Shown here one piece after another: positions 8,143 through 34,485 of a DNA stretch of 64,000 nucleotides (position 1 is its first letter; each line of letters starts with the position of its first letter). The notes beneath the pieces were generated by a model. That model had not been told where the DNA came from. It was given only the letters and a program-made list of their open reading frames with translations, and searched no databases. The stretch spans positions 124,001-188,000 of the forward strand of contig AZWL01000004.1 of assembly GCA_000514715.1 (NCBI GenBank), in the 5' to 3' direction. A program made the translations under genes and the position numbers. This DNA is from Streptomyces sp. CNH099 (GTDB taxonomy: Bacteria; Actinomycetota; Actinomycetes; Streptomycetales; Streptomycetaceae).

Positions 8143-10118
8143 CCGCGGTCGACTTCACGAAGGGCGGCGACGAGGGCCGCGACGAGGACGCGGGCGCGCC
8201 GGGGCCGGTGACCGCCGACGGCATGATGCCCCTGTGGGCGGTGTCGCTCGGCTGGGAGCTGCGGCGCGGCCGCCAGGTGGTCCTCAGCGGGCAGATCCGG
8301 GACCGCTGGTGGTTCAACGACGCGCCCGCCGACTTCCGGGCGGTCGTCGCCGGGGTGCTGGAGACCCGCGGCGCCGACGTGGTGGGCTGGTGGGACCCGG
8401 TGGCCGGACTCACCTTCCCGCTGCCGGACCACGCGGAGCGCTTCGCGGAGCTGGCGGCGGACCGGCCCCGTACGGCCGCCGGGAACAGCGGCCGGCCCGC
8501 CGGCGGTGAGGAGCGGCCGGGCGGCGAGCCGCGCACCCGGCGCGGCGCCCAACGCGAGCGGGACCGCGCCGGTCTGCTCGCCCCGCGCCGGGCCGCCGCC
8601 GGGTGGTCGTTCGACGACGTGGTCGCCGCCGTGCACCGCGTCGTCGCCTCGCCCGACACCGCCACGGCCTTCGTCTTCCAGGACGTCGACCACCATCTCC
8701 CGCCCGGCCGGCCGGAGTCGAACGCCGGCTATCTGCGGCTGCGCGCGGCCATGGCCGACGCCGTGACCCCCCGCACCGCTCCCCCGGACCGCCGTCCGCA
8801 CGCCCGCAACGCCGTGCTCTGCGCGGTCGGCGACGTCGGCCGGCTGCCCGGCTGGTTCCACCTGGAGGACCCCCGGATCGCCACCCTGCACATCGGCCCG
8901 CCGGACCCGGGTGAGCGCCGGCTGTGGCTGACCTGGCTGCGGGACCGCTTCAACGGCGCCGCCGACGCCACCCGGAACGAGGTGGAGGCGCTGGTCGGCG
9001 CGACCGACGGGATGTCCGGCTGGGACATCGACGCCCTCGCGCGGACGTCGTGGCTGCGCGACGCCCCGGTGCAGAAGCCGGACAAGCTGCTGGAGGTGCA
9101 CCGGCTGAACGTGAGCGTCGACCCGTGGACCCAGCTGGACCGGGAGACCGTCGCCCGCGCGGCCGACGTGCTGGGCGCCCGGGTGGTCGGGCAGCAGAAG
9201 GCCGTCGACGCGGTGGCCGCCGCGCTCCAGGCCGCGTTCGTGGGCGTCGACTTCGGCGGCTCCGGCACCGCCCGCCCGCGCGGCGCGTTCTTCTTCGTCG
9301 GCCCGACCGGCGTGGGCAAGACCGAACTCGCCAAGGCCGTCGCCGAGCTGATGTTCGGCGACCGGAGCGCGTACGCCCGCTTCGACATGAGCGAGTACCG
9401 GATGGAGCACGCGGCCGAGCGGCTCGCGGGGGCCCCGCCCGGCTACATCGGCCACGAGCAGGGCGGGGAGCTGACCCGGCGGGTCCGGGAACGGCCGTTC
9501 AGCGTCCTCCTCTTCGACGAGATCGAGAAGGCGCACCCCCGGGTGCTGGACAAGTTCCTCCAGATCCTGGAGGACGGCCGCCTCACCGACGGCCGCGGCC
9601 AGACCGCCTACTTCTCCCAGTGCCTGATCATCTTCACCTCCAACACCGGTGCGGAGGCCGTCCAGGACCTGCTGTACGAAGGCGACGACGACCTGCCGTA
9701 CGGCGTGCTGGAGGCGCACTTCACCCGGGCCGTGGAAGAGAAGTTCCGGCAGATCGGCCGGCCGGAGATCTACGGCCGGCTCAAGCCCGGCGTGGTCGTC
9801 TTCGACATGCTGCGCCGCGAGCACATCGTGAAGATCGCCGACCGGCTGCTCGGCCAGCTCGCGGAGTCCGTCCGCGAGCGCCACCGGATCGTCCTCGTGC
9901 CCGACACGGACTCGCTGCACCCCTGGATCACGGAGCGGATGAGCGACCCGGAGCACCAGGCGTACGGCGGGCGCCAGATCCGCAACGAGATGGAGCGGCT
10001 GCGGGCGGCCGTCGTCACCCACTTCCTGGCCCGCCGGCCCGCCCCGGGCAGCCGGCTCCGGCTCGGCGTCGACGCGGACGGCACCGCGTGGGTCAGGACC
10101 GGGGAAGGGGAGTGCTGA
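8139..10118 (+). CDS. ClpB-like AAA+ ATPase with degenerate first AAA module
   Basis: A 659-residue protein whose GTG start overlaps the previous stop. The C-terminal module is a full Hsp100 D2-type AAA+ domain: GPTGVGKTELAK (Walker A, about residue 388), FDMSEY, GAPPGYIGHEQGG with the GYIG pore loop, LLFDEIEKAHP (Walker B), LQILEDGRLTDGRG, TSN (sensor 1) and GGRQIRNE (sensor 2). The N-terminal half keeps a Walker-B-like FVFQDVDHHLP and the AAA lid pattern but has no Walker A, so it looks like a dead AAA module. There is no ClpP-binding loop that I can see. Expected role: ATP-driven remodelling or threading of a protein complex formed by the operon products. Confidence 0.88.
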   Translation: MTAVDFTKGGDEGRDEDAGAPGPVTADGMMPLWAVSLGWELRRGRQVVLSGQIRDRWWFNDAPADFRAVVAGVLETRGADVVGWWDPVAGLTFPLPDHAERFAELAADRPRTAAGNSGRPAGGEERPGGEPRTRRGAQRERDRAGLLAPRRAAAGWSFDDVVAAVHRVVASPDTATAFVFQDVDHHLPPGRPESNAGYLRLRAAMADAVTPRTAPPDRRPHARNAVLCAVGDVGRLPGWFHLEDPRIATLHIGPPDPGERRLWLTWLRDRFNGAADATRNEVEALVGATDGMSGWDIDALARTSWLRDAPVQKPDKLLEVHRLNVSVDPWTQLDRETVARAADVLGARVVGQQKAVDAVAAALQAAFVGVDFGGSGTARPRGAFFFVGPTGVGKTELAKAVAELMFGDRSAYARFDMSEYRMEHAAERLAGAPPGYIGHEQGGELTRRVRERPFSVLLFDEIEKAHPRVLDKFLQILEDGRLTDGRGQTAYFSQCLIIFTSNTGAEAVQDLLYEGDDDLPYGVLEAHFTRAVEEKFRQIGRPEIYGRLKPGVVVFDMLRREHIVKIADRLLGQLAESVRERHRIVLVPDTDSLHPWITERMSDPEHQAYGGRQIRNEMERLRAAVVTHFLARRPAPGSRLRLGVDADGTAWVRTGEGEC

Positions 10119-12958: not shown

Positions 12959-15399
12959 GCGGCTTCCAGCAGCTCTACTACACCTCCTGCGAACACGGGC
13001 TCAGCGGCTCCGCCGGCTTCCAGTTCAACGCGGTGAGCGAGGGGGTGTCGGCCGAGACCCGGCACCGGGTGGAGGGGCTGGCCGGGTACGAACCCCCGCG
13101 CGCCCTGGTCGAGTCGGACACCGCAGAGCTTCTGGCCCGCTGCCCCGTCAACCTCTGCCACACCCCCGGCCGGCCGGGCGGCGTGACCACGCTGTGCGTG
13201 CGGTACGCCGGCCGGGACTCGGCGCGCCGCTTCGGCAACTACTTCGCCCACGCCCTGCACACCGAGGGCGAGTTCACCCGGGACAGCGGCGGGCTGCTGG
13301 CGATCGAGCTGTGGGACTCCCCGCTGTGGACGTCCCGGGTCGCCGCGACCACCGAGATCCCGGAGCTGTCCGGGCCCCTGCCGCGCGGCCCGCTGTCCCC
13401 CCGTTCCGTACGCGCCTTCCTGCGCGCGCACCCGCACGCGGAGCAGTTGCCCGCCCTGCTGGCCGCGGTGTTCGCGGCGCTCGCCGAGGACGGCTCGGTG
13501 GTGGTGGTCGACGAGTCGACCGACCGGATCGCGCACTGGTTCGCGGCGGTCTCGTACCTGCTGCCGCCCGCGACGGCCCGCTCCCTGTCCTTCGCCACCT
13601 ACCTCTTCCGCCCCGCCCGCAGCCGCCTGCACCTGATCGGCTCGGTGCCCGGGGCGGACCTCGCGTTCGGCCCCGACGACGGGGAGTCGTACACGGTCTT
13701 CGACTTCTCCGCGGGCCGGTTCCCGGAGGTCGTGCCCGCCCATCCCCTGGTGCACCTGCTGACCCGGATCGGGGTCGGCTCGGTGCGCTCGGTGTGGTCC
13801 TGGACCGCCGAGTACACGGACGGCGAGGAGCGGCACCCCGCCGACTGGCACGCCCCGGTGGCGGCGGCCGCCGCGGCCGGCGGCATCGGGCTGGCCGGCC
13901 CCGACGTCCGCGCGGTGATCGACTGGCTCCCCGGCGCGGACCACCTCGGGCCGCGCCGGGCGGCGGTGGCGGCGGACATCCACGACAAGCACCGGGACCT
14001 GGACGACGACCGGCTGGCCGTGCTGAGCGCCGCCGCCCGGGCGGGCGGCGACACCGCGCTGCACCGGGAGCTGGAGGGCCGGCTCCACCGCTCCCGGATC
14101 CGCGCCTACGCGTCCGGTGCGCCGGACGCGCCGGATCCCGTGCCGCTCACCGACCCCGCCGAGCGGGCGGAGGGCACGGCGCTGTGGCACAGCCTGCTCG
14201 GCGAGGCCACCACGACCCGCCGGCGGGTCCGGCTGCTGCTGTGGGCGGCGGGGGCGCGGCTCGACGTGCCGGCGGAGGTGCTCGCGGCCGAGAGCCGGGA
14301 CGCGGCCCGCGCCCTCCTCGGCGTGCCGGGCGCGGGGGCGGCGCTGGAGCAGGACGTCGCGTACCTGGTCCGCGTCCTCCCGGAGTTCAGGGCCGCGCTC
14401 GCGGCCGCGGTGCGGGAGGCGCTGGAGGCGCGGGGCGGTCAGGAGCAGCTCTTCACCCAGTTCCCCGCCCAACTGCTGAGGGAGAAGGACCTGGAGGGCC
14501 AGCCCCGGCTGCTGGAGCACTACTGGCGGGCGCAGGCCGAGCGGAACCCCGCGCGCACGGTCGACCTGCTCTTCCGGATCCTGGCGGTACGCGGCGAGCC
14601 CGCGCCGGACGCGGAGCTGCTGCGCGGGCTGTGGCGGCGGCCGTCGCCGGCCTGGCGGCACGAGGAGGCGACGCAGATCGCCCGCCGGCTGCCCGCGGAC
14701 CGGCCGCCGGGCGACGCGGTCGGCGAGTGGTTCGACCGCGCGGTGAAGCAGCCGATCGACGACGAGCGTGCCCTGCGGCCCTGCCTGGAGCTGTGCGCCG
14801 TGCTCGCCGCGCCCCGCCGCTACGCCTGGCTGAAGCCGGTCACCCAGGAGTGCGTACGGGTCACGCTCGAACTGGACGCGGCGCTGGGCGCGGCCACCGA
14901 GGCCACCGCGCTCGCCCGCGCCTTCCGGATTCCGCAGATCGACGCCTGGGCGCCGACGCTCGCGCTGAAGCGCCACCGGCTCGTCCCCGCCATGCTCCGG
15001 CTGCCGGCCGACCCGCGCCTGCTGGCCGCGGAGATCGGGGAGTTCGACCACTCGACCGCCGACGGCTACCTGCGCGCCGTGCACCGGGCCACCCTGTCCT
15101 CGTCCGCCGTCGGCGACGTGCTGTTCAGCCATCTCACCGGTCTCCTCGCGGCCTACGGCGCCCGGGTCCGGATGGCGCACGGCCACCGGGAACTCATCGA
15201 GGCGGTGCACCTGCACCTCACCGGGCGGTGGTCCGCGCCGCAGCTGGAGCGGATGTCCCGCGCGCTGGAGCGCTGCGGCTCGGAACTCGCGGGCGCCTAC
15301 GCGGAGCACGCCGAGCAGCGGCTCGGCCGGCTGCAGAAGTGGAGCCGCAGACGGAGCCGGCGGCGGCGCCCGGACGGCTCCCGGCCGGAGCGGGGGTGA
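12955..15399 (+). CDS. GAP1-like GTPase-associated protein
   Basis: An 814-residue cytoplasmic protein between the two GTPase genes. The opening QQLYYTSCEHGLSGSAGFQF and VRYAGRDSARRFGNYFAHAL are typical of the N-terminal domain of GTPase-associated protein 1. A middle region around residues 150-330 has repeated hydrophobic strands (SLSFATYLFRP), and the long C-terminal half is all helical. No enzyme motif is visible. Gene position, start overlap with GTPase 1 and near-contact with GTPase 2 argue that the three proteins work as one module. The family is known from genome comparison only; its biochemical role is not established. Confidence 0.75.
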   Translation: MSGFQQLYYTSCEHGLSGSAGFQFNAVSEGVSAETRHRVEGLAGYEPPRALVESDTAELLARCPVNLCHTPGRPGGVTTLCVRYAGRDSARRFGNYFAHALHTEGEFTRDSGGLLAIELWDSPLWTSRVAATTEIPELSGPLPRGPLSPRSVRAFLRAHPHAEQLPALLAAVFAALAEDGSVVVVDESTDRIAHWFAAVSYLLPPATARSLSFATYLFRPARSRLHLIGSVPGADLAFGPDDGESYTVFDFSAGRFPEVVPAHPLVHLLTRIGVGSVRSVWSWTAEYTDGEERHPADWHAPVAAAAAAGGIGLAGPDVRAVIDWLPGADHLGPRRAAVAADIHDKHRDLDDDRLAVLSAAARAGGDTALHRELEGRLHRSRIRAYASGAPDAPDPVPLTDPAERAEGTALWHSLLGEATTTRRRVRLLLWAAGARLDVPAEVLAAESRDAARALLGVPGAGAALEQDVAYLVRVLPEFRAALAAAVREALEARGGQEQLFTQFPAQLLREKDLEGQPRLLEHYWRAQAERNPARTVDLLFRILAVRGEPAPDAELLRGLWRRPSPAWRHEEATQIARRLPADRPPGDAVGEWFDRAVKQPIDDERALRPCLELCAVLAAPRRYAWLKPVTQECVRVTLELDAALGAATEATALARAFRIPQIDAWAPTLALKRHRLVPAMLRLPADPRLLAAEIGEFDHSTADGYLRAVHRATLSSSAVGDVLFSHLTGLLAAYGARVRMAHGHRELIEAVHLHLTGRWSAPQLERMSRALERCGSELAGAYAEHAEQRLGRLQKWSRRRSRRRRPDGSRPERG

Positions 15400-23174: not shown

Positions 23175-23735
23175 GGTCGTGCCTTTCGGGAGTGCGCGTG
23201 AAGGCGCTCCCGGACGACCTACCGCCCGGCCGTGACCCCGGAGGGGAGCACCCGTACCGATACTGCGTTCACGGGTACCACCTCCTCGTCGTCGTGCACG
23301 GCCCCCGGGAGGCTAGCAACGGCCGCCCCGGCCCGCCAACGGGATTTCGCGCTCCCCGCCGGCCCCCGCCCCGCCGGTCACCGTCGGCGGGACGAACGGC
23401 ATGGCCGTGTCCGGCCGCTCCCCCGGGTCACGGCAGGTCGTCTCCGGCGGTGCCGACGCGGTCCCACTCCACGATCACGGCCTCATGGGATCCCTCCTCG
23501 GCATCCGCTCCGGCAGGCACCTGTTCCCGCACGGGCGCTACCTGGACACACCGGGGTCCCCGGGAGTACTCGCGCGCCGCGGGCGGACGCCGCGGGGCCG
23601 CGGGGGCGTCAGGGCCGTGCCACCTGGGTAAGACCTGAGCGGCACTTCGTGTCGTGAAAGGCTCACGCTGCGCCAGCCTGCATGAGAGCTCGACGTACGC
23701 ACATGCAGTCCGGGCGGGTACTCCAAGGGGACCGA
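23175..23735. other. 561-base divergent intergenic region, no supported gene
   Basis: Lies between the hydrolase (minus) and the trypco2-type gene (plus). Several open frames cross it on both strands but none has a good start, ribosome binding site or recognisable domain. The minus-strand frame ending at 23428 has a coding-looking tail (VREQVPAGADAEEGS), possibly the worn end of an old gene. Promoters for both flanking genes must be here; no convincing hexamers were found. Confidence 0.5.
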
Positions 23736-24068
23736 ATGGGGCGGGACTTACAGCGGCTGACACTGACCGAGGCCATCGAGTCGCTGCGCCGGGATCTGGA
23801 GGCCGCGCAGCGCCAGGGGGTGGGCAGAGGCATCGGCTTCAGCGTCCAGGACATCAGCGTGGAACTGGCCGTCGAGGCCGAGCGGAGCGACAGCGTGGAG
23901 GGCGGGGTGTCCTGGTACGTGACCGCCAAGGGCGGCCGGTCGCGGATCCGGCGCAACGCCACCCGGCTGGTGGTGTCGCTGAAGCCGCGCGGCACCCTCA
24001 ACGTCGCGGACGACACCGGCCGGCCGCGCAACAGCCCCGCTCCCCGAACCGGCGACACGGCGCGGTGA
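23736..24068 (+). CDS. Trypco2-type small protein (trypsin co-occurring domain)
   Basis: A 110-residue protein; the ATG at 23736 follows AAGGGGA. LTLTEAIESLRRDLEAAQRQG followed by IGFSVQDISVELAVEAER and SWYVTAKGG matches the trypsin-co-occurring domain 2 (trypco2) recognised in conflict systems. It is encoded four bases before a trypsin-like protease gene, the association that gives the domain its name. Role unknown; it is probably a partner or substrate of the protease in a signalling complex. Longer starts at 23682 and 23703 are possible but less well placed. Confidence 0.78.
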   Translation: MGRDLQRLTLTEAIESLRRDLEAAQRQGVGRGIGFSVQDISVELAVEAERSDSVEGGVSWYVTAKGGRSRIRRNATRLVVSLKPRGTLNVADDTGRPRNSPAPRTGDTAR

Positions 24069-24072
24069 CGGG

Positions 24073-26382
24073 GTGTCCGGTGCGCTTCCGCCGGAGCCGC
24101 CGGAGGGCGGTCCGGCGGACGACGAAGCCGCCGACGCCGTAGCCGGGGCCGCGCAGACCCCGGACCGGCTGGTCGAGATCAGTCTGCGGAACGGCCGGGG
24201 CGAGCCCGTCGGGCACGGGTCCGGCTGGCTGCTCGACGACGACCTCGTCCTGACCGCGGCGCACGTGCTGTGGCCCGCCGCCCGCCCGGACGCCGACGGG
24301 GTGGCGATCGAGGTCCGGTGCGGGAACGTGCCGCCCCATCAGCCCTGGCACCGCTGCGAGATCGTGTGGAGCGGGCTGCCGCTCCCCACCGGTCCCCCGG
24401 ATGCCGGTCCCCCGCAGGCCGGGGAGGACGAGCCGGCCGGTCTCGACGCCGCGCTCCTGGCGGTGACCGGCTCCGGCTGGCGGCCGCCCGACCCCCGGTG
24501 CCCGCCGCGGCTGGGCTGGCGGGGTTCGAGCATCACCGAGTTCGAGGTCTTCGGCTTCCCGGCGTTCCTCCACAGCGAGCGGCACGCCTACGACGTGCAC
24601 CAGTGCGGCGGGCGGCTGCGGCCGGCCAACCTGAGCCGGTCGGACGTGCGGACGGTCGAGGTCGCCGCCGAGGACGCACCCGAGATCCCGGAGGGCTGGA
24701 CGGGCATCTCGGGCTCCGCGGTGCTGGTCGGCGCGGAGCGCGCGGTGATCGGTGTGGTCGTGGGCGGCGACCAGGGCAACGCCCGCAGGCTCCGGGTCCT
24801 GCCGGTGACCCGGCTGACCGCGGACCCGGAGTTCCGCCGGCGGTGGCAGGGCCACCGGCGCGGCGAGGCCCACAGCCGGCGCACGGTGCTGGCCGCGATC
24901 CGGCTGCGGCTGGAGCGGGCCGAGCCGCTGGCGGCGGCGGGCTCCCGGCGCGCGCTGCTGGAGCGGCTGCTGCCCGACGCGCTCCGGGATCCCGAAGTGG
25001 CCGCCCTCGACGGCCCCTTCCTGCTCGCCGCCCTGGTCGACCGGCTCGCCCCGGTCCCCGGCGGCTTCGCCGCGCTGGCCGCCGAGTACGCAGCGTCGTA
25101 CGCCGCATCGAACGCTGACGAGGACGCCACCGGCGGCGACCTCCGCTTTCTCGCCGAGGAGTGCCGCGCCCTGGAGCTGCTGGGCGCCGAGAGCTGGGGC
25201 GGACTGCGCGGGGCCCTGCGGGTCCTGGTGCAGGACGACCTCCACGGCGTCCCCGTCACCGCGCTCTACGCCCGGGCCACCGCCGGCGCCGCGGAGCCGG
25301 CGATGCCGGCGCACTGCGACGAGCCGTGGAAGGCGTTCGTGCACCTGGTGTGCGCGGGCACGGGCACCGAGGAGCTGCCGGCGGCGCTGCGCTTCCTGGA
25401 GCTGGTCGCCAGCGCGGTCGGCGGCTCGACCGCCGACACCGTCCGGGCACACAACCGGCGGTGGGCGGTCCGGCTGGACATCGCCGGGCGCGCCCCGGCC
25501 GAGGGCGCGGAGACGGGGGCCGCGGCGGCGGAGACGGCGGCCGGCGGCGGGCGCGGCGGCTACGCCCGCCAGGTGGACGAGCTGCGCCGCCGGCTGGTCA
25601 GCGCCCCCGTGCAGCGCCCGACGTCCGCCCGGCTGCTGGTCGAGCTGATACCGGACCCGGACGGCGACCCGGACTGCTGGACGGTCTCCTTCTACTTCCA
25701 GTGCCGCCCCCGCCCCGCCGCCTGGCAGCGGCTGCCGATGCCGCTCGCCGAGCGGGTCATCCACCTGACCCTGCTGTCCGACCGGGTGGAGGTGGCCCGC
25801 GGCATGCTCCGGGACGTCCACGGGGTGCCCGACGGCCGCATCGAGGTCGAGTACATCCTGCCGCTGGACCTCATCGACCACCCCGACAAGCTGATAGCCC
25901 ACGGCGGGCTGCCCCAGGCCGCCACGTCCTTCCCGCTGGTCGTCCACAGCCTGGACCGGCTGCACAACAGCACCTGGCGCGCGGTGTGGCAGGAGCACTG
26001 GCGGCGCACCCGGCGGACGCCGGGCCGGCTGACGTTCCAGGTCGCCGCGCTGGACGGGCCTCAGGCGGCCGCGGCGGAACCGGTCTCCGGCGTGCTGCTC
26101 ACCCAGAAGCCCGGCTCCGACACCGGCCGCAACGAGGTGAGCACGGCCCTCCGGCACGGCGTGCCGCTGGTGATGTGGCGGCACCACCCGCGTGCGCAGC
26201 CGGACTTCACCGCGCTGTCCCGGCGCATCATGGCCGAAGGCCGTCTCGACGTGCGGCAGTTCGGCCGGGACGACGGCGACGGTCCGGCGGCCGGCGAGTC
26301 GGTCTGGAACAGCCAGTTCGTCGTCATCTTCGACACCCCGGAGAACCTGCCCGGCCTCGTGTACGGCGAGGTGTCACCGTGA
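24073..26382 (+). CDS. Trypsin-like protease fused to vWA-MoxR-associated (VMAP) C-terminal region
   Basis: A 769-residue protein starting at GTG. Residues ~30-250 are a trypsin-like domain with the full triad: His in LVLTAAHVLW, Asp in LDAALLAVTG and Ser in TGISGSAVLV. A helical middle (residues ~280-500) precedes a C-terminal domain of about 250 residues (ARLLVELIPDPDGD..., VEYILPLDLIDHP, GVLLTQKPGSDTG, PLVMWRHHP, ending in FDTPENLPGLVYGEVSP) that I recognise as VMAP-C. No signal peptide is present, so the protease acts inside the cell. In such systems the protease is the presumed effector, gated by an NTPase; here that is the STAND protein encoded next. Confidence 0.85.
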   Translation: MSGALPPEPPEGGPADDEAADAVAGAAQTPDRLVEISLRNGRGEPVGHGSGWLLDDDLVLTAAHVLWPAARPDADGVAIEVRCGNVPPHQPWHRCEIVWSGLPLPTGPPDAGPPQAGEDEPAGLDAALLAVTGSGWRPPDPRCPPRLGWRGSSITEFEVFGFPAFLHSERHAYDVHQCGGRLRPANLSRSDVRTVEVAAEDAPEIPEGWTGISGSAVLVGAERAVIGVVVGGDQGNARRLRVLPVTRLTADPEFRRRWQGHRRGEAHSRRTVLAAIRLRLERAEPLAAAGSRRALLERLLPDALRDPEVAALDGPFLLAALVDRLAPVPGGFAALAAEYAASYAASNADEDATGGDLRFLAEECRALELLGAESWGGLRGALRVLVQDDLHGVPVTALYARATAGAAEPAMPAHCDEPWKAFVHLVCAGTGTEELPAALRFLELVASAVGGSTADTVRAHNRRWAVRLDIAGRAPAEGAETGAAAAETAAGGGRGGYARQVDELRRRLVSAPVQRPTSARLLVELIPDPDGDPDCWTVSFYFQCRPRPAAWQRLPMPLAERVIHLTLLSDRVEVARGMLRDVHGVPDGRIEVEYILPLDLIDHPDKLIAHGGLPQAATSFPLVVHSLDRLHNSTWRAVWQEHWRRTRRTPGRLTFQVAALDGPQAAAAEPVSGVLLTQKPGSDTGRNEVSTALRHGVPLVMWRHHPRAQPDFTALSRRIMAEGRLDVRQFGRDDGDGPAAGESVWNSQFVVIFDTPENLPGLVYGEVSP

Positions 26383-26478
26383 GGCCGCGTGCGGCCGGGC
26401 CGCGCGGGCACGACTCCGCCCGGCCGGGGAACGGCATCGCCTCCGCCAGGGGCGAGCATCCGATCCGAGGGGGATCCC

Positions 26479-29088
26479 ATGCCCAGCGCCAGTGAACCGC
26501 CGCAGCGCCCCCGCCCGGACTCCGACCAGGGCCCGGACCCGGCGAGGCGTGCGGCACCGCCGCGCCAGCCGCCGGGCGGCGCACCGGCGGTGTGGGAGAA
26601 CGTCCCGCCGCGCAACCCCAACTTCACCGGCCGGGAGCGGCTGCTCAGCGCACTGGCCGAACGGCTGGCCGACGAGCGGACCCCCACCGCGGTCCTCCCC
26701 GAGGCGATGTACGGGCTCGGCGGCATCGGCAAGTCCCAGCTCGCCATCGAGTACGTGTACCGGCACCAGGCCGACTACGACGTCGTGTGCTGGGTGCCCA
26801 GCGAGCACACCCCCGGCATCGTCAACACCCTCTCGCACCTGGCCGGCCGGCTCGGCCTCGACGACGGCGGCGACGCCGGCGCCGGCGTGGCGCAGGCGCT
26901 GGACTCGCTGCGCCGCGGCGTGCCCTACTCCCGCTGGCTGCTGGTCTTCGACAACGCGGAGAACGCACAGGCCCTGGCGCCGTACCTGCCGAACTCCCGC
27001 CGCGGCGCCGTGCTCATCACCTCGCGCAACCCGCAGTGGGAGGACATCGCGGGCTGCCTCGAAGTGCGGGTCTTCGAGCGGGCGGAGAGCATCGCGCTGC
27101 TCAACAAGCGCGGGCCCGCGCTCGACCCGGAGGACGCCGACAGGCTGGCCGAGGCCCTCGGCGACCTGCCGCTGGCGATCGAGCAGGCGGCGGCGTGGCG
27201 GGCGCAGACCGGCATGCCCGTGGCGGAGTACCTGCGGCTGTTCGAGGACAAGCGCGGCGACCTGCTCTACGAGGGCGCGCCGCACCTGTATCCGGAGTCC
27301 GTCGCCACCGCGTGGAACGTCTCCCTCGACCGGATCGAGCAGACCAACCCCGAGGCGCTGCACCTGCTCCAGGTGTGCGCGTACTACGCGCCCGAGCCGA
27401 TCCCCCGCTCGCTGTTCCACGGCGCGCACCGCGGCAGGATAACGCCGGAGCTGGACGCGGCGCTGGCCGACCCGATGCGGCTGGGGCGGGCGATCCGCGA
27501 GATCAAGCGGTTCTCGCTGGCGCGGATCGACGCCCGCAACAACTCGCTGCAGATGCACCGCCTGGTGCAGACCGTGCTGTCGCAGCGGATGACGCCGCCG
27601 GAGCGGGAGCTGATGCGGCTCGGCGCCCAGCTGCTGCTGGCCGCCGCGGATCCGCGGGACCCGGAGTCGAACGCGCAGTGGGGCCGCTATTCGGAGTTGT
27701 ACCCGCACGTCGTGGCCACCGACGCCGTCCACTCGACGGACCCGTGGGTACGTGACCTCGTGATCAACACGGCGAAGTACCTGCAGCGGTTCGGCGACCA
27801 CGAGAGCGCCCTGCGGTTCACCCGCGAGGCGCACGGAGCCGCCGCGGCGCTGTTCGGCGCCGAGCACGAGCGGACGCTGCAGCTCGCCTTCTGGCTCGGC
27901 TGGACCCTGTTCAGCATGGGCCGCTACGAGGAGGCCGCCGAGATCAACAAGGAGACGCTCGACGCCCACGAGCGCGTGGTCGGCCCGGGGCCGATCCGGG
28001 TGGCCGACGCCAACGAGGCCCATCTGGACGCCCTCGGCGCGGTCGCCGCGGACCTGCGGGTCAGAGGGGCCTTCGGGAAGGCCCTGGCGCTGAGCCGGCG
28101 GGTCTTCGACACCGCGACCGCGGCGTTCGGCGAGGACGACCCCTTCACGCTGAACGCGGCCCACAACCTCGGGGTGGCGCTGCGCCTTGTCGGCAGCTTC
28201 CGGGAGGCGTACGAGCTGGACCGCCACACCTGGGAGCTGAAGCAGACGCTGCTGGGCGCGGAGCACGAGCAGACCCTGCTGACCCGGGTGGGCCTGACCA
28301 TCGACGAGCGCGAGCTGGGCCTCTACCTGCAGGCGCGCAACCGTCAGGAGGAGGTCGTCAGCCTGTACGCCCGCTACCTGCGGGAGGACAACCCGGCCGT
28401 GCTGCACGCCAAGCGGGTGCTCGCGGTGACCCGGCGGAAGGCGGGCGACCACGCCGCCGCCCTGGAGCTGTCCGAGGAGGTGATGGCCGTGATCGAGGAG
28501 CGCTTCGGACGCGCCCACCCGGCCACGATCGCCGCCTGCCTGGGCATGTCGGTGGACCTGCGCCACGCCGGGCAGATGGAGCGGGCCCGCGAGCTGGCCG
28601 AGGTGTCGCTCGAGCGCTTCCGGGGCATCTTCGGCGACCGCCACCCGCACACCGTGTCGGCCCAGGCCAACCTGGCGATCATCGCCCGGCTGGACGACCG
28701 GTGCCGGCCGGCGTACGAACTCGACCAGGCCGCCTACGACGCGCTGCTCGGCCAGCTCGGCGAGCTGCATCCGCTGACCCTGATGGTGGCCACCAACCTG
28801 GCCAGCGACCTCGCCGGGCTCGGCCGGCACCGGGACGCCCTGGACCTGGACGCGGCGACGCTGGAGCGCTCGGCGGAGGTGCTCGGCGAGAAGCACCCCT
28901 CGACGCTGACCCTGGCCGCCAACCGGGCGCTGGACCTGCACGCGCTGGAGCGCCACGCCGAGTGCGACGACCTGCACGGCGCCGTGCTGGCGGAGATGCG
29001 CGAGCGCCTCGGCCCGGACCACCCGGCGGCGGCCACGCTGGCGAACCGGGAGCGCGCCAACTGCTTCATCGACCCGCTGCCGCTGTGA
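26479..29088 (+). CDS. STAND NTPase with TPR repeats (FxsT-like)
   Basis: An 869-residue sensor-type protein. GAGGGGG precedes the ATG at 26479. VPPRNPNFTGRERLL leads to the nucleotide-binding region: GLGGIGKSQLAIEYVYRH (Walker A), WLLVFDNAENA (Walker B), LITSRN (sensor) and LPLAIEQAAAW (GLPL-like). The second half (residues ~380-869) is a run of TPR-like repeats (ALRFTREAHGAAAALFGAEHERTL and similar, spaced ~42 residues). This is the FxsT/STAND layout used as a ligand sensor. It belongs with the trypco2 and trypsin-VMAP genes, 96 bases upstream. It is also found near FxSxx-type peptide genes, and a HExxH enzyme with a peptide gene lies just beyond in convergent orientation. Confidence 0.85.
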   Translation: MPSASEPPQRPRPDSDQGPDPARRAAPPRQPPGGAPAVWENVPPRNPNFTGRERLLSALAERLADERTPTAVLPEAMYGLGGIGKSQLAIEYVYRHQADYDVVCWVPSEHTPGIVNTLSHLAGRLGLDDGGDAGAGVAQALDSLRRGVPYSRWLLVFDNAENAQALAPYLPNSRRGAVLITSRNPQWEDIAGCLEVRVFERAESIALLNKRGPALDPEDADRLAEALGDLPLAIEQAAAWRAQTGMPVAEYLRLFEDKRGDLLYEGAPHLYPESVATAWNVSLDRIEQTNPEALHLLQVCAYYAPEPIPRSLFHGAHRGRITPELDAALADPMRLGRAIREIKRFSLARIDARNNSLQMHRLVQTVLSQRMTPPERELMRLGAQLLLAAADPRDPESNAQWGRYSELYPHVVATDAVHSTDPWVRDLVINTAKYLQRFGDHESALRFTREAHGAAAALFGAEHERTLQLAFWLGWTLFSMGRYEEAAEINKETLDAHERVVGPGPIRVADANEAHLDALGAVAADLRVRGAFGKALALSRRVFDTATAAFGEDDPFTLNAAHNLGVALRLVGSFREAYELDRHTWELKQTLLGAEHEQTLLTRVGLTIDERELGLYLQARNRQEEVVSLYARYLREDNPAVLHAKRVLAVTRRKAGDHAAALELSEEVMAVIEERFGRAHPATIAACLGMSVDLRHAGQMERARELAEVSLERFRGIFGDRHPHTVSAQANLAIIARLDDRCRPAYELDQAAYDALLGQLGELHPLTLMVATNLASDLAGLGRHRDALDLDAATLERSAEVLGEKHPSTLTLAANRALDLHALERHAECDDLHGAVLAEMRERLGPDHPAAATLANRERANCFIDPLPL

Positions 29089-29173: not shown

Positions 29174-30988
29174 TCAGCGGCTCAAGGCGGCGGCCAGGCG
29201 TACGGGGTCGGGCGCGGGCCCGGCGCCGCCGCGGCGCAGTTCCGCGTGGACGGCCAGCACGAACTCCGGGCGCTCAAGCAGCACACCGGCCGCCGGGTGG
29301 CCCCGGGCCCGCAGCGCCAGGCCGAGGCCGGACCAGGCGTCGGGGTCGGGGCCGGGCCCGCGCACAATCCGGTCCGTGAAGGCGGCGCGGGCCGCGTCGT
29401 GGTCGCCGGTCACCAGCGCCAGGTCCTCGGGCCGCGCGCCTTCGACCGCCCCGGCCGCCGCCTCCACCCACGCCGGGTCGCCGGCGCCGTCCACGAGCAT
29501 CCGGCGCAGCAGGACCGCCCGCGTGTCCAGGCCCCGCCCCGGCCGGCCCGGCACGATGCGGCCGTCCGCGGCCGGCGGCGCGCCGGGGGCGTTTCCCGCC
29601 GCGCCGTACGCGCGGGCGGCGCGGGCCACCGCGTCGGCCGGGGGCCGCAGGTGGTACGCCCGCCAGGTGGCCCGGTGGTCGGCGGCGGCCAGCGCGGCCG
29701 CGTCCCGGGCCCGGGCCCCCACCGGCTCGTCCCGCCAGCCGGCCAGGCGGCCGGCCAGCTCGTCGACCAGGTCGCGGCCCATCGGGGTGAGCCGGTCCGC
29801 GCCGCGGATCGCGTGCAGCGCGGTGAGCGTCTGCTGCCGCCACAGCGCGTACTCGAACTCCGCCAGCTCCCCGCGCCGCCGCCGCCAGAAGCGGGTGACG
29901 CCGAAGAACGCGTAGACGCCCTGCAGGAGCCCGCCCAGCGGGCGGGGGTCGTCGCGCCAGGGCGCGTAGAACCGTTCCGCCCCGCCGTCCTCGTGCAGGG
30001 TGAACAGATGCATGAACGCGCCGAGTTTGTGGTGCTGGAACTCGTGCACGAGCGTGCACGCGAGCTGCTCGGCGTCGTCGGGCTCCGAGGCCACGACGGC
30101 GCCGAAGGCGTCCCCCGACGAGGCGCTGTGCGGGCGGTACCGCTCGGACCGGGGCCGGGGCACCACGGAGCGCAGCCCGGCCGCGGCGGCCCGCGCCGCC
30201 TCGGGGTCGTCGCGCGCCAGCAGCCGCCACGCCTCGGCGAACAGCCCGGCCCAGCGGTCCGCGCCGCCCAGCGGTTCGGGCGCGCGCGGCCCGCGCAGCG
30301 CCCGGTACGGGTCGATGTCGTCGAGCAGCAGGGTGCAGCCCTCGGCGCGCAGCTCCCGCAGCCCGTGCCAGCCGCCCGCCCCGCCGGATCCGTCGACCCC
30401 CTCGGACCCGCCGGTCCCGCCGGCCGCGTCCGCCCGTACGCGCACCGGGCCGACCCGTACGTCACCGTCCGCGGCGACCACCTCGGCGGCGGCCCAGCGG
30501 CCCGCCGCCGACTCCACCCGGGCGCCGCCGAGGCCGGGCAGCACCGCCCAGCCGTCGCGGACCGGCACGCTCGTACGGAAGGTGAGGCCGGCCAGCACCG
30601 CGGCGGAGGCGGCCACCGCGTGCAGGTGGCCGGTCTCGACCCACAGCGGCGAGTCGGCGGGGGCCGTGCCCCGTACCCGCCGCAGCGCGTGCGCGGCCCA
30701 GGTCCCGACCGCCGGATAGGCCAGCAGCCGTTCCACCTCGGCGGGGGCGGACCGCCAGGCGCGGGTCAGCAGCCGCCAGCCGTCGTGCAGTCCGGGCAGC
30801 GGGCCGGGCGGCGTGTCCGCGGCGCCCGCGGCCGCGTCGGCGGCGTCCGCCAGCGCCCGTAACAGCAGCAGCCGCCAGCTGCGTTCGGCGGCACCGAGCA
30901 GGGCGATCGCGTCCGGCCCGCCCCCGCCGCGCAGCAGTTGGCGGTGCTCGGCACGTCCCAGCCGGTGCTGCTGCGCTTCCACCCGCAC
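29174..30988 (-). CDS. HExxH-type peptide beta-hydroxylase candidate (standalone)
   Basis: A 604-residue protein starting at GTG 30988 (or 30982), 44 bases after the stop of a 57-residue peptide gene. HRQLLRGGGGPDAIALLGAAERS is the usual N-terminal signature of the HExxH-domain family. The motif CTLVHEFQHHKLGAFMHLF (about residue 320) contains HEFQH. The same domain is fused to radical SAM/SPASM modules in FxsB-type enzymes, where work on RiPPs showed alpha-ketoglutarate-dependent beta-hydroxylation. Here it stands alone. The C-terminal half is helical with TPR-like units. Probable reaction: hydroxylation of a residue in the peptide encoded upstream. A protease role suggested by the motif is less likely given the family. 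Confidence 0.78.
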   Translation of the reverse strand: MRVEAQQHRLGRAEHRQLLRGGGGPDAIALLGAAERSWRLLLLRALADAADAAAGAADTPPGPLPGLHDGWRLLTRAWRSAPAEVERLLAYPAVGTWAAHALRRVRGTAPADSPLWVETGHLHAVAASAAVLAGLTFRTSVPVRDGWAVLPGLGGARVESAAGRWAAAEVVAADGDVRVGPVRVRADAAGGTGGSEGVDGSGGAGGWHGLRELRAEGCTLLLDDIDPYRALRGPRAPEPLGGADRWAGLFAEAWRLLARDDPEAARAAAAGLRSVVPRPRSERYRPHSASSGDAFGAVVASEPDDAEQLACTLVHEFQHHKLGAFMHLFTLHEDGGAERFYAPWRDDPRPLGGLLQGVYAFFGVTRFWRRRRGELAEFEYALWRQQTLTALHAIRGADRLTPMGRDLVDELAGRLAGWRDEPVGARARDAAALAAADHRATWRAYHLRPPADAVARAARAYGAAGNAPGAPPAADGRIVPGRPGRGLDTRAVLLRRMLVDGAGDPAWVEAAAGAVEGARPEDLALVTGDHDAARAAFTDRIVRGPGPDPDAWSGLGLALRARGHPAAGVLLERPEFVLAVHAELRRGGAGPAPDPVRLAAALSR

Positions 30989-31032
30989 TTCCGCTCCAGG
31001 TTCCGTGACATCAGGGCCGTCCGGGCGCAGGG

Positions 31033-31206
31033 CTACTCGTCGCGCTGCGGGTTGTAGCCGCCCATGCTGCTCGCGGGGTCGTCGATCCGGTGGAGCAGGC
31101 GGTGCATCGACGCCGTCACGACCGGCGCGTCCATGGCGAGCAGCTCGTCCGGGCCGACGGCCCCGAGATCAGCCAGCTCCGCTTCGACGCTGTTCTGCTC
31201 GCTCAC
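31033..31206 (-). CDS. 57-residue precursor peptide candidate for the HExxH enzyme
   Basis: This small gene is easily missed. From GTG 31206 to TAG 31033 it encodes 57 residues: an acidic helical N-terminal part (SVEAELADLGAVGPDELLAM), then DAPVVTASMHRLLHRIDDP, then ASSMGGYNPQRDE at the C-terminus. The leader pattern (L..+..+..LL..D.PV+..S+.RLL..+) resembles FxsA-type FxSxx-COOH precursors, but the ending is GGYNPQRDE rather than FxSxx. It directly precedes the HExxH gene on the same strand. The GG and the polar tail look like a leader/core boundary with Asn, Gln or Asp as modification targets; this is inference. The ribosome binding site is weak (GGGTGGGG). Confidence 0.65.
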   Translation of the reverse strand: MSEQNSVEAELADLGAVGPDELLAMDAPVVTASMHRLLHRIDDPASSMGGYNPQRDE

Positions 31207-31399: not shown

Positions 31400-32215
31400 T
31401 CACGACCGCGGCATCACCACCGTGATCAGCCTCCGGTCCCGTGCGGGTTCGGCTTCGATGTCCGGCGGCGGGGGCGGGCTCGGCGCGGGCACGGAGAACT
31501 CGGTCTCCCAGGCGGCCCACGGGTCCGGCGACACGCCCGCGTCCGCCTCCTCCGGAATCTGCCCGCCCCGCTGTCCGGGGTCCGCGTCCGGCGGGACGTG
31601 GGCGGCGAGGAACCCCTCGTCGCTGCGGGTGCCCTGCGGGGAGGCACGCGGGAAGTGCGCGGAGTCACCGGTGCGGCGGTGCCGTCCCCGGGGGGCGGTG
31701 GGGCCCTCGGGGTCGGGCAGAAGCCCCTGAGTGGAGAGCTTCTTGAGCCGGTCGACCACGGTGCTCACCTCCACGCCGGCCTCGGCGGCCAGCACATGCA
31801 GGTCCACACCGCTGCGCCAGCCCTGCGCCAGCGCCTCGTCCAGCGCCGACAGGGCCGGGGGACCGGAGGAGGCGTATCCGCCGGATCCGTCCGGGCGGTC
31901 GGCGCTTTCGGCGGCACGCTCCTTTTCTGCGCGCTCGTGGAAGGAGGTCAGCAATTCCTCGGCCACGATGCGGGCGTCTTTCCGGCCGACGCTCCGGCGC
32001 GCGGCCCGTACCTCACGTTCCGCCAGCCCCAGCAGGTCGGCCGCCGAGCGGTCCCTGCCGAGGTTGACCGCGAACGCGGCCAACGCGTGCCGACGGGCCG
32101 TCTGTGCCTGCGCAAGCACTGTTTCGGCGATCCTGACCTGCTCGTCGTAGTAGCAGAATTCCTCTGCGATAGCCCGATTCCGATGCCACGAGTGTCGCGG
32201 TTCCATACGCCCCAT
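31400..32215 (-). CDS. HTH-containing protein of unknown function
   Basis: A 271-residue protein. Residues ~15-100 are helical (EEFCYYDEQVRIAETVLAQAQTARRHALAAFAVNLGRDRSAADLLGLAE), including an LGRDRSAADLLGLAEREV helix-turn-helix-like stretch. A second one lies near residue 145 (VLAAEAGVEVSTVVDRLKKL). The C-terminal third is disordered and Pro/Asp-rich. I place the start at 32215; ATG 32206 is an alternative, and a longer frame to 32353 lacks a ribosome binding site. It looks like a DNA-binding regulator specific to actinomycetes; no named family. A perfect 12-base palindrome lies about 33 bases upstream and may be its operator. Confidence 0.65.
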   Translation of the reverse strand: MGRMEPRHSWHRNRAIAEEFCYYDEQVRIAETVLAQAQTARRHALAAFAVNLGRDRSAADLLGLAEREVRAARRSVGRKDARIVAEELLTSFHERAEKERAAESADRPDGSGGYASSGPPALSALDEALAQGWRSGVDLHVLAAEAGVEVSTVVDRLKKLSTQGLLPDPEGPTAPRGRHRRTGDSAHFPRASPQGTRSDEGFLAAHVPPDADPGQRGGQIPEEADAGVSPDPWAAWETEFSVPAPSPPPPPDIEAEPARDRRLITVVMPRS

Positions 32216-32247
32216 ATCCCGATCTACGGAATGTCGTAAGAATGGCT

Positions 32248-32259
32248 CTGACCGGTCAG
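32248..32259 (-). promoter_or_regulatory. Palindrome CTGACCGGTCAG upstream of the HTH gene
   Basis: A perfect 12-base palindrome 33 bases upstream of the start at 32215, in a stretch of otherwise moderate GC. The size and place fit an operator for a dimeric regulator, perhaps the HTH protein itself. Confidence 0.35.
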
Positions 32260-32411
32260 CACCAAGACCGCGCCCGGAATGTTTTTCCCTGCTATCAGAG
32301 CATCCACCCGCTTCATCAACGCCCCAACCCCCGTATGGGACACGACCCGCCATCGGCTGTTTCAGACCATTACGTGCACCTCTCCGCCTCCGCCCCCGGA
32401 AGACGGCCGGG

Positions 32412-33327: not shown

Positions 33328-34485
33328 ATGGCCCGGAAACGCCGGCCGCTGCCGGTGGCCGTGGTCGCCGGGATGCACCACGACGCGCGCACCGCGGCCG
33401 TCGAGGCGCTGCTGCACGGCGTACCCGGCGCCGTCGCCGTGCACCACGACCTGGGCGGCGCCGGCAACGGCCGGGTGCCGCGCACCGTGCGGGACGCGGC
33501 CGGGGTACGCGACCGGGGCCGGCCCCGCATGTCCGTGCCCTGCGGCTGCTGCGCCGTCCGCGACGACCTCGTACCCACCCTGCTGGCGCTGGCCGCCGAC
33601 GGCGCCTGCCCACTGGCGGTGGTCGAGCTGTGGGACTCGGTGGAGCCCCGGGCCATCGCCGAGCTGATCGCCGCCGGGCCCGGGGAGGCCGTCACGCTCG
33701 CCGGCGTGCTCACCGCCGTCGACACCGACTCGCTGCTGCCGTTCCTCAGCTGCGGCGACGACCTCGCCGAACAGGACCTCGCGGTGGCGCCCGACGACCG
33801 GCGCACCGTCGCCGACACGTTCGCCCGCCAGCTGGAGTACCCGCCGGTGCTCGCCGTCACCTGCGTCGGCGCCCCCGAACCGGCCGACCTCGCGCTGCTG
33901 GACCAACTCCACGCCACCGCCCACCGGGTACGGATCGGCTCGGCGGAGCTGGTCCGCGCCGCGCTGACCGGTGTCGACGTCGACGCCGCGGCCGCGCGGC
34001 ACCATCCGGCCTGCGCACTGCTGCCCCAGGAGGCCGAGGAGCACGGCGTGGCCACCCTCGTCTGGCACCGCACCCGCCCCCTGCACCCCGGCCGGCTGTA
34101 CGCGGCCCTGGAGGACGTCACCTGCGCCGCCGTACGCAGCCGCGGCCGCCTCTGGCTCGCCGACCGCCCCGACGCGCTGCTGTCCTGGGACGCCAGCGGC
34201 GGCGCGCTGTGCATCGAGCACGCCGGACCGTGGCTGGCGGCGCTGCCGGAGGCCGCCTGGGAGCTGGAGCCGGCCGCCCGCCGGGTCGCCGCCGCCCTCG
34301 ACTGGCACCCCCGGCACGGCGACCGCGCCCAGCACCTCACGTTCACCGGCCCGGACCTGGACCGCGACATCCTGCCCCGGGTCCTGGACTCGTGCCTGCT
34401 CACCGACGACGAGTTCGCCGCGGGCCCGGGCGCCTGGCGCGCGCTGTCCACCGCGTTCGACGCGCTGCTGGGCGCACCCGCCTGA
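33328..34485 (+). CDS. COG0523/CobW-family GTPase-like metallochaperone with altered P-loop
   Basis: A 385-residue protein directly following L31. The conserved CGCC metal-binding motif (PCGCCAVRDDL, residues ~71-81) and the VVELWDSVEP switch-like strand identify the CobW/COG0523 family of zinc or cobalt chaperones. The region that normally reads GFLGSGKTT is instead VVAGMHHDARTAAVE, so the canonical Walker A lysine is absent; GTP hydrolysis may be lost or changed. The C-terminal domain (LEDVTCAAVRSRGRLWLADRPD, then SWDASGG, ending HLTFTGPDLDRD) is complete. In Zur regulons such proteins deliver zinc to essential enzymes during starvation. The linkage supports this role. Confidence 0.88.
   Translation: MARKRRPLPVAVVAGMHHDARTAAVEALLHGVPGAVAVHHDLGGAGNGRVPRTVRDAAGVRDRGRPRMSVPCGCCAVRDDLVPTLLALAADGACPLAVVELWDSVEPRAIAELIAAGPGEAVTLAGVLTAVDTDSLLPFLSCGDDLAEQDLAVAPDDRRTVADTFARQLEYPPVLAVTCVGAPEPADLALLDQLHATAHRVRIGSAELVRAALTGVDVDAAAARHHPACALLPQEAEEHGVATLVWHRTRPLHPGRLYAALEDVTCAAVRSRGRLWLADRPDALLSWDASGGALCIEHAGPWLAALPEAAWELEPAARRVAAALDWHPRHGDRAQHLTFTGPDLDRDILPRVLDSCLLTDDEFAAGPGAWRALSTAFDALLGAPA

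Follow-up and report, generated by a model that had tools for sequence, protein, structure and literature searches.

The window analysed here, a stretch of 64,000 nucleotides from Streptomyces sp. CNH099 (contig AZWL01000004.1), carries on its minus strand a gene for a precursor-like peptide of 57 aa (MSEQNSVEAELADLGAVGPDELLAMDAPVVTASMHRLLHRIDDPASSMGGYNPQRDE; 31033..31206), which starts with GTG and ends in SMGGYNPQRDE. The same strand continues, after a gap of 44 nt between the end of one gene and the start of the other, with the gene of a standalone HExxH enzyme of 604 aa (29174..30988), also with a GTG start and with GGAG five bases upstream of it. Both ORFs were found as the initial annotation had described them, that is, a 57-codon gene ending GGYNPQRDE placed 44 bases ahead of a same-strand HExxH gene. 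On the plus strand lie a Trypco2 (trypsin-co-occurring domain 2) protein (23682..24068; PF19631, 60.8 bits), a trypsin-like - VMAP-M0 - VMAP-C protein (24073..26382; PF19916 and PF20028 over their cut-offs, PF13365 short of its own), and, starting 6 nt past the VMAP gene and convergent with the HExxH gene, an NB-ARC-TPR protein of the FxsT type with 899 aa (26389..29088; NF040586, 838 bits; NB-ARC and TPR_12 domains).

The enzyme matched the TIGR04267 profile (aKG-HExxH peptide oxygenases) at 178.6 bits against a cut-off of 40, and is the sole match of that profile in its own genome; it also matched NF040587, under the cut-off of that family. Its HEFQH motif occupies residues 315-319 (30032..30046, minus strand) and is followed by WRDDPRP at residues 344-350, and the HExxH was intact and W-R-x-D-P-R invariant in all 88 standalone rows, the window included. 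An AlphaFold2 model built from 13 sequences (mean pLDDT 82) matched two solved structures strongly, namely that of SjiH (22ob; Z 39.6 over 381 residues, 2.8 A) and that of the ChlB HExxH domain (8s5f; Z 25.1), the latter being described as a 2-oxoglutarate-dependent oxygenase; the next row stood at 6.1. From the model, roughly the first 420 residues are equivalent to the HExxH half found in radical SAM fusions, while the part from about residue 482 looks TPR-like; this C-terminal extension (residues 482-604; 29174..29545, minus strand) lies outside the part matching that HExxH half. Counted from the start of the match, the enzymes of the window and of loci L003-L014 measured 546-643 aa, compared with 395-472 aa for the 10 radical SAM-linked rows with comparable starts, five other radical SAM-linked matches being left out of this comparison as they start inside the domain. 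In a quick, unrooted tree, one branch (SH-aLRT 97) separated the 88 standalone from 15 radical SAM-linked enzymes; the tree did not include L030, nor L057 and L076, which repeat L003 and L005. Recent loss of the radical SAM half from a fusion is not favoured, given the single-branch split and the extra C-terminal part on the standalone enzymes. Among 72,556 plasmid records, partial matches to the enzyme were found in 4, none of them covering 80% of it.

The peptide gene has a GC content of 0.76, 0.41 and 0.95 at codon positions 1, 2 and 3. Its frame is kept in the close homologue L032, where the peptide is 77% and the HExxH protein 72% identical, and in others, and the ratio pN/pS was 0.43 in the proposed frame versus 1.20 and 1.85 in the shifted frames (20 sequences including the window, 27 codons; the sequences were picked by motif search, which lowers pN at a few positions). 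The coding bias and frame conservation to be expected of a real peptide gene were thus seen in relatives, and a chance ORF was rejected, since the pairing is conserved across loci and the substitutions fit the proposed frame. An FxsA-like leader had also been suggested for this peptide, and this holds weakly: residues 12-45, all within the leader, matched TIGR04268, the FxSxx-COOH precursor family, at 20.1 bits (E 5.5e-4), a weak match that stays under the cut-off of 28. The same profile matched at E<=1e-3 in 7 of 32 scanned peptides, the window peptide included.

A peptide profile, built from the window peptide and its relatives, matched a small ORF on the same strand ahead of the HExxH gene in 87 of 91 cases, across 76 named loci of actinobacteria, which derive from the best 80 of 507 relatives and hence favour close ones; the fragment L056:2-319 was too short for this count. 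At these loci the median position of the peptide was 52 nt ahead of the aligned enzyme start, and the pair was found in Streptomyces, Micromonospora, Actinoplanes, Frankia, Amycolatopsis and other genera. The four remaining genes (L073, L080, L087 and L096) are standalone HExxH genes with no peptide match in the upstream range, and L073 has a peptide-like ORF downstream of its HExxH gene, at 13240-13491. At further Streptomyces loci, hand-chosen from the middle of a scan of that genus and scored with the profile trained on the earlier loci, the peptide matched on the same strand in 40 of 40 cases and on the opposite strand in none; without L119 and L126, which repeat L038 and L101, this becomes 38 of 38, and in three of the 40 (L124, L147 and L149) the matching frame is open for more than 390 codons, leaving the peptide start ambiguous. 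In the genus scan itself, 215 of 392 genomes had an HExxH match at E<=1e-60, a number that includes radical SAM-linked relatives such as the one in genome G034 (locus L019). That homologous HExxH genes are accompanied by such a peptide is therefore borne out by both samples.

At 14 of the loci (L033-L037, L039-L045, L051 and L059) two divergent HExxH-peptide cassettes with unlike tails were observed, for example GGYNPQRDA and SDFNPAERFD. A gene of the trypsin-EAD2 family lies between the divergent cassettes in 13 of these 14 loci and a Trypco2-like gene in 9, and 13 of the 14 have one NB-ARC-TPR gene.

The setting of the pair proved to be larger than one enzyme and one peptide. By tblastn against the fetched stretches, an NB-ARC-TPR protein of the FxsT type was present in 71 of the 76 loci and VMAP-C was present in 57, with a distant NB-ARC-TPR relative (27% identity) in L066 beyond the 71 counted; at L058 and L075 the peptide-HExxH pair is accompanied by neither FxsT nor VMAP-C in full stretches of 21.8 kb. 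With the NB-ARC-TPR, trypsin-VMAP and Trypco2 genes as neighbours in the window as well, the minimal RiPP pathway of a single enzyme and a single peptide proposed in the initial annotation was not upheld. At least 300 extra N-terminal residues were seen on the NB-ARC-TPR protein in 65 of 71 mapped relatives, lengths that are rough with the gene caller used (a simple GC3 rule, which misses genes and may set starts too early), and the window and its closest relative L032 are without them. A trypsin-like VMAP N-terminus akin to that of the window was found by tblastn only in L032 and L038 among the 76 loci. Among called genes that were clustered, for which all counts are lower bounds, a family including trypsin-EAD2 proteins (checked by Pfam in L041 and L057) occurred in 29 of 76 loci, Trypco2-like proteins and an AAA family each occurred in 21, and a family to which a caspase-EAD2 protein of L072 belongs occurred in 7. 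Five window proteins compared with PADLOC gave no match at E<=1e-3, a result that does not argue against a defensive module. Upstream of the peptide, an ORF of 317 aa (31400-32353, minus strand) had no Pfam match at E<=0.05 and no tblastn match in the 76 loci, and a GTPase-like protein at 33328-34485 (plus strand) lies near the ribosome-hibernation-factor-recruiting GTPase family, below the cut-off of that family.

The C-terminal ends of the peptides fall into recurring groups. GGYNPQRDE, which in the window takes up codons 49-57 (31036..31062, minus strand) and is the predicted core, recurs exactly or in near variants in a group of Streptomyces, and SGYNPQR[IL]D tails are found in Micromonospora, Actinoplanes and Catenuloplanes; SYNPSRFD, GPPGRAD, GGSEPGRAE and STIGGSSGS are other tails among the relatives. 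From 141 peptides we obtained 117 distinct C-termini, and 52 of them end exactly in R-x-[DE], compared with a mean of 1.6 and a maximum of 7 in 1000 shuffles, although these counts include shared ancestry. The wider pattern xRx[DE], at most 3 residues from the end, was present in 59 of the 117 tails and absent near the end in 58, and the residue preceding the Arg in those 59 was G in 14, Q in 12, S in 9, A in 8, E in 7 and others in 9. An FxSxx end was found in none of the 117 distinct tails, the window peptide ending in NPQRDE with R-D-E where many relatives have R-x-D. The ending, called new in the initial annotation, is not entirely new in kind: Kaur et al. (2020, PMC7159879) already list an RxD motif type of peptide next to a zincin-like enzyme.

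That article (eLife 2020), to the extent of its accessible text, describes peptide-processing modules within VMAP systems with peptides of FxSxx, RxD and acidic types, interprets the HExxH protein as a zincin-like peptidase, names radical SAM genes only for the FxSxx and FtsH-associated types, and gives the RxD type an AP-ATPase fused to vWA, a MoxR gene belonging to that arrangement. Like the RxD-type module as described there, the window has a zincin-like HExxH gene and a small divergent peptide, no local radical SAM gene, and VMAP together with an AP-ATPase (NB-ARC) with TPRs. Unlike it, the NB-ARC-TPR protein of the window begins near the NB-ARC domain, with no vWA fusion and no MoxR-like gene found in the window, and its peptide tail is R-D-E versus the RxD motif, a comparison made with the wording of the article. 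No Pfam vWA was found in three extended NB-ARC-TPR proteins scanned, and a MoxR-like gene was found with two AAA queries in 29 of 76 loci, the window and L032 having none. Judged by gene content and sequence, we take the window pair to work like the RxD type, and we call it a variant because it shows no AP-ATPase-vWA fusion and its tail is R-D-E. Beyond Kaur et al., our search of openly available main texts found no paper on this pair; the mention of RxD in PMC8195603 concerns death-like domains.

No radical SAM gene occurs at the window locus, and an FxsB-type sequence was found in none of the fetched stretches of the 76 named relatives. The claimed absence of a radical SAM half was in this sense confirmed, with the addition that the window's genome has FxsB genes on other contigs. 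Compared with the FxSxx-COOH/FxsB-HExxH systems (ChlBH, and SjiH going by its PDB chain name, the literature search having returned nothing on the SjiH protein), the window shares the homologous HExxH domain, an FxsT-type neighbour and a weak leader similarity. It differs from them in having neither a radical SAM domain or local FxsB nor an FxSxx end, in the extra C-terminal TPR-like part, and in lying on a separate side of the tree. Sequence comparison supports a conserved pairing of a standalone HExxH enzyme, with no radical SAM gene at the locus, and a precursor-like peptide whose leader is weakly FxsA-like and whose tail is not of the FxSxx kind.

Several HExxH enzymes in the literature are, like that of the window, unfused to radical SAM domains: PflC and PosC (Pseudomonas), PesO (Peribacillus) and BipH and BpmH (Streptomyces). 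PosC and PflC hydroxylate Gln residues and cut oxidatively at the Ala of an ARMD motif, at which Ala and Gly favour cleavage and an A91Q exchange led to hydroxylation without cleavage (PMC12636437). PesO hydroxylates the Pro ahead of R(V/T)DN (PMC13060819), and a beta-hydroxyl on the second aromatic residue of FRFRS, before Arg-Ser, was assigned to BipH (PMC12707348), to which the BpmH named in PMC12257519 is homologous. In the PosC, PesO and BipH systems the oxidised residue directly precedes an Arg near the C-terminus, an arrangement that for the window is a prediction, and the ChlB enzyme acts elsewhere than before a tail Arg (PMC12636437). The PflC/PosC, PesO and BipH/BpmH clusters carry further modifying genes, with an MNIO in each and a nitroreductase, arginase, radical SAM or nitrile-forming enzyme in some, and the PflA leader is nitrile hydratase-like (PMC12636437).

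Taken together, the reading we prefer, at a probability of roughly 0.58, is that the tail of the precursor peptide is oxidised within a conflict module by an Fe(II)/2-oxoglutarate HExxH enzyme that docks on the leader and works without radical SAM. The N-terminal half of the peptide (V-E-x-E-L-x-D-L...) would dock on the HExxH enzyme, the tail GGYNPQRDE would be its substrate, and the enzyme, as a predicted Fe(II)/2-oxoglutarate peptide oxygenase, would need no radical SAM step. Because three characterised HExxH systems act directly before an Arg and the window has Gln in that place (NPQ-R-DE), Gln54 (31045-31047, minus strand) is by analogy with PosC, PesO and BipH the most likely site and would become 3-hydroxy-Gln, with Pro53 second in line. 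Where sister families have Gly or Ala ahead of the Arg, the enzyme might instead break the backbone by oxidation, so that a C-terminal amide remains. A single site rule cannot cover the whole family, since 58 of 117 tails are without xRx[DE] near the end. The conserved R-x-D need not be a tag for the enzyme either, since Arg, Met and Asp of the PosA ARMD were each dispensable and single changes did not stop PosC (PMC12636437), and R-x-D as an obligatory tag is weakened by that alanine scan together with the 58 tails; the tail Arg may instead serve the trypsin-like protease of the module. The product would belong to the NB-ARC-TPR/VMAP/protease conflict module, not to a free-standing antibiotic pathway. 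We found no such reading, an oxygenase acting before a tail Arg in these modules, in the openly available main texts searched.

An alternative that we consider doubtful is the one of Kaur et al. (2020), in which the HExxH protein would act as a zincin-type metallopeptidase and free a C-terminal peptide by cutting the precursor. It is stated in PMC7159879, it agrees with the hydrolysis of leaderless peptides by the family member PflC with several metals (PMC12636437), and zincin-type peptidases do appear among the weak fold matches of the enzyme model, at a Z of about 5. Both strong fold matches, however, are SjiH and a described 2-oxoglutarate-dependent oxygenase domain, full-length PflA was not hydrolysed by PflC under anaerobic conditions (PMC12636437), and the module of the window already has a trypsin-like domain.

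The peptide could also be a small protein that stays unmodified and acts as partner or regulator, either for the HExxH enzyme or for the NB-ARC protein, which we hold to be somewhat less probable still. This would suit the position of the only invariant or nearly invariant columns among 32 aligned peptides, L14 and D13 respectively, both of which lie in the leader. It would likewise suit the neighbourhoods, in which, by simple clustering with most smaller families unannotated, none of the families apart from the enzyme, FxsT and VMAP exceeds 29 of 76 loci and one family of MFS transporters reaches 13 of 76. The tails, on the other hand, end in recurring short motifs, and the leader weakly resembles that of the FxSxx precursor family.

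A third possibility, oxidative backbone cleavage as the main reaction in the window itself, removing the tail and leaving an amide as PosC does on ARMD, is improbable in our opinion. PosC and PflC provide the precedent with a similar Arg-containing end (PMC12636437), and Gly or Ala ahead of the Arg is common in sister tails (22 of 59), but the window has Gln there, the residue which at this place in PosA gave hydroxylation without cleavage. The least probable of all, to which we give very little credit, is that an FxsB encoded elsewhere adds a tail crosslink (at Tyr51, for example) before or after the HExxH step: the window's genome does encode FxsB on contig C1 (583 bits) and again on contig C79 (428 bits), both above cut-off, but none of the 76 loci has one in its fetched stretch, no FxsB reached the cut-off in six (G009, G011, G017, G022, G024 and G032) of the 12 related genomes that carry the pair, and the C79 enzyme is accompanied by its own precursor-like peptide.

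When the RxD-type modules were named in 2020, their enzyme was taken for a peptidase; HExxH proteins were later found to be 2-oxoglutarate oxygenases. With this finding and the conserved tails, the RxD-type modules become a large family for which a single reaction and a single site can be put to the test. If the preferred reading of a leader-docked oxygenase is true, the peptide side of the VMAP/NB-ARC conflict systems would gain a chemistry, and one could then ask if a bacterial NLR-like protein is under the control of an oxidised peptide. A pair of peptide and HExxH enzyme that recurs in many soil bacteria, usually beside an immune-receptor-like gene, makes a promising candidate for an oxidised peptide used as signal or weapon. 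A bolder extension, which we think unlikely, is that the modified peptide stays inside the cell and that its hydroxylation, dependent on O2, Fe(II) and 2-oxoglutarate, would signal a status that the TPRs of the NB-ARC protein sense. The trypsin-like VMAP protein would then cut at the tail Arg as a switch, the whole would guard an NLR-like effector of bacteria in a prolyl-hydroxylase-like manner, and oxidation before the Arg would be general for standalone HExxH enzymes.

The two FxsB genes of the window's genome have contexts of their own. On contig C1, a frame of 993 aa with an FxsB radical SAM domain (L113:8567-11548) has an extension in which the HExxH is lost, with NF040587 over cut-off, and its C-terminal region matched aminoglycoside 3-N-acetyltransferase families below cut-off. 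On contig C79, an FxsB-type radical SAM gene with an upstream peptide of 72 aa was observed (L112:7839-8918 and 9218-9436); this peptide ends in PDDDD and matched the YxD-tail RiPP family with a score short of its cut-off, and downstream of the FxsB gene an FxsT-type protein is encoded.
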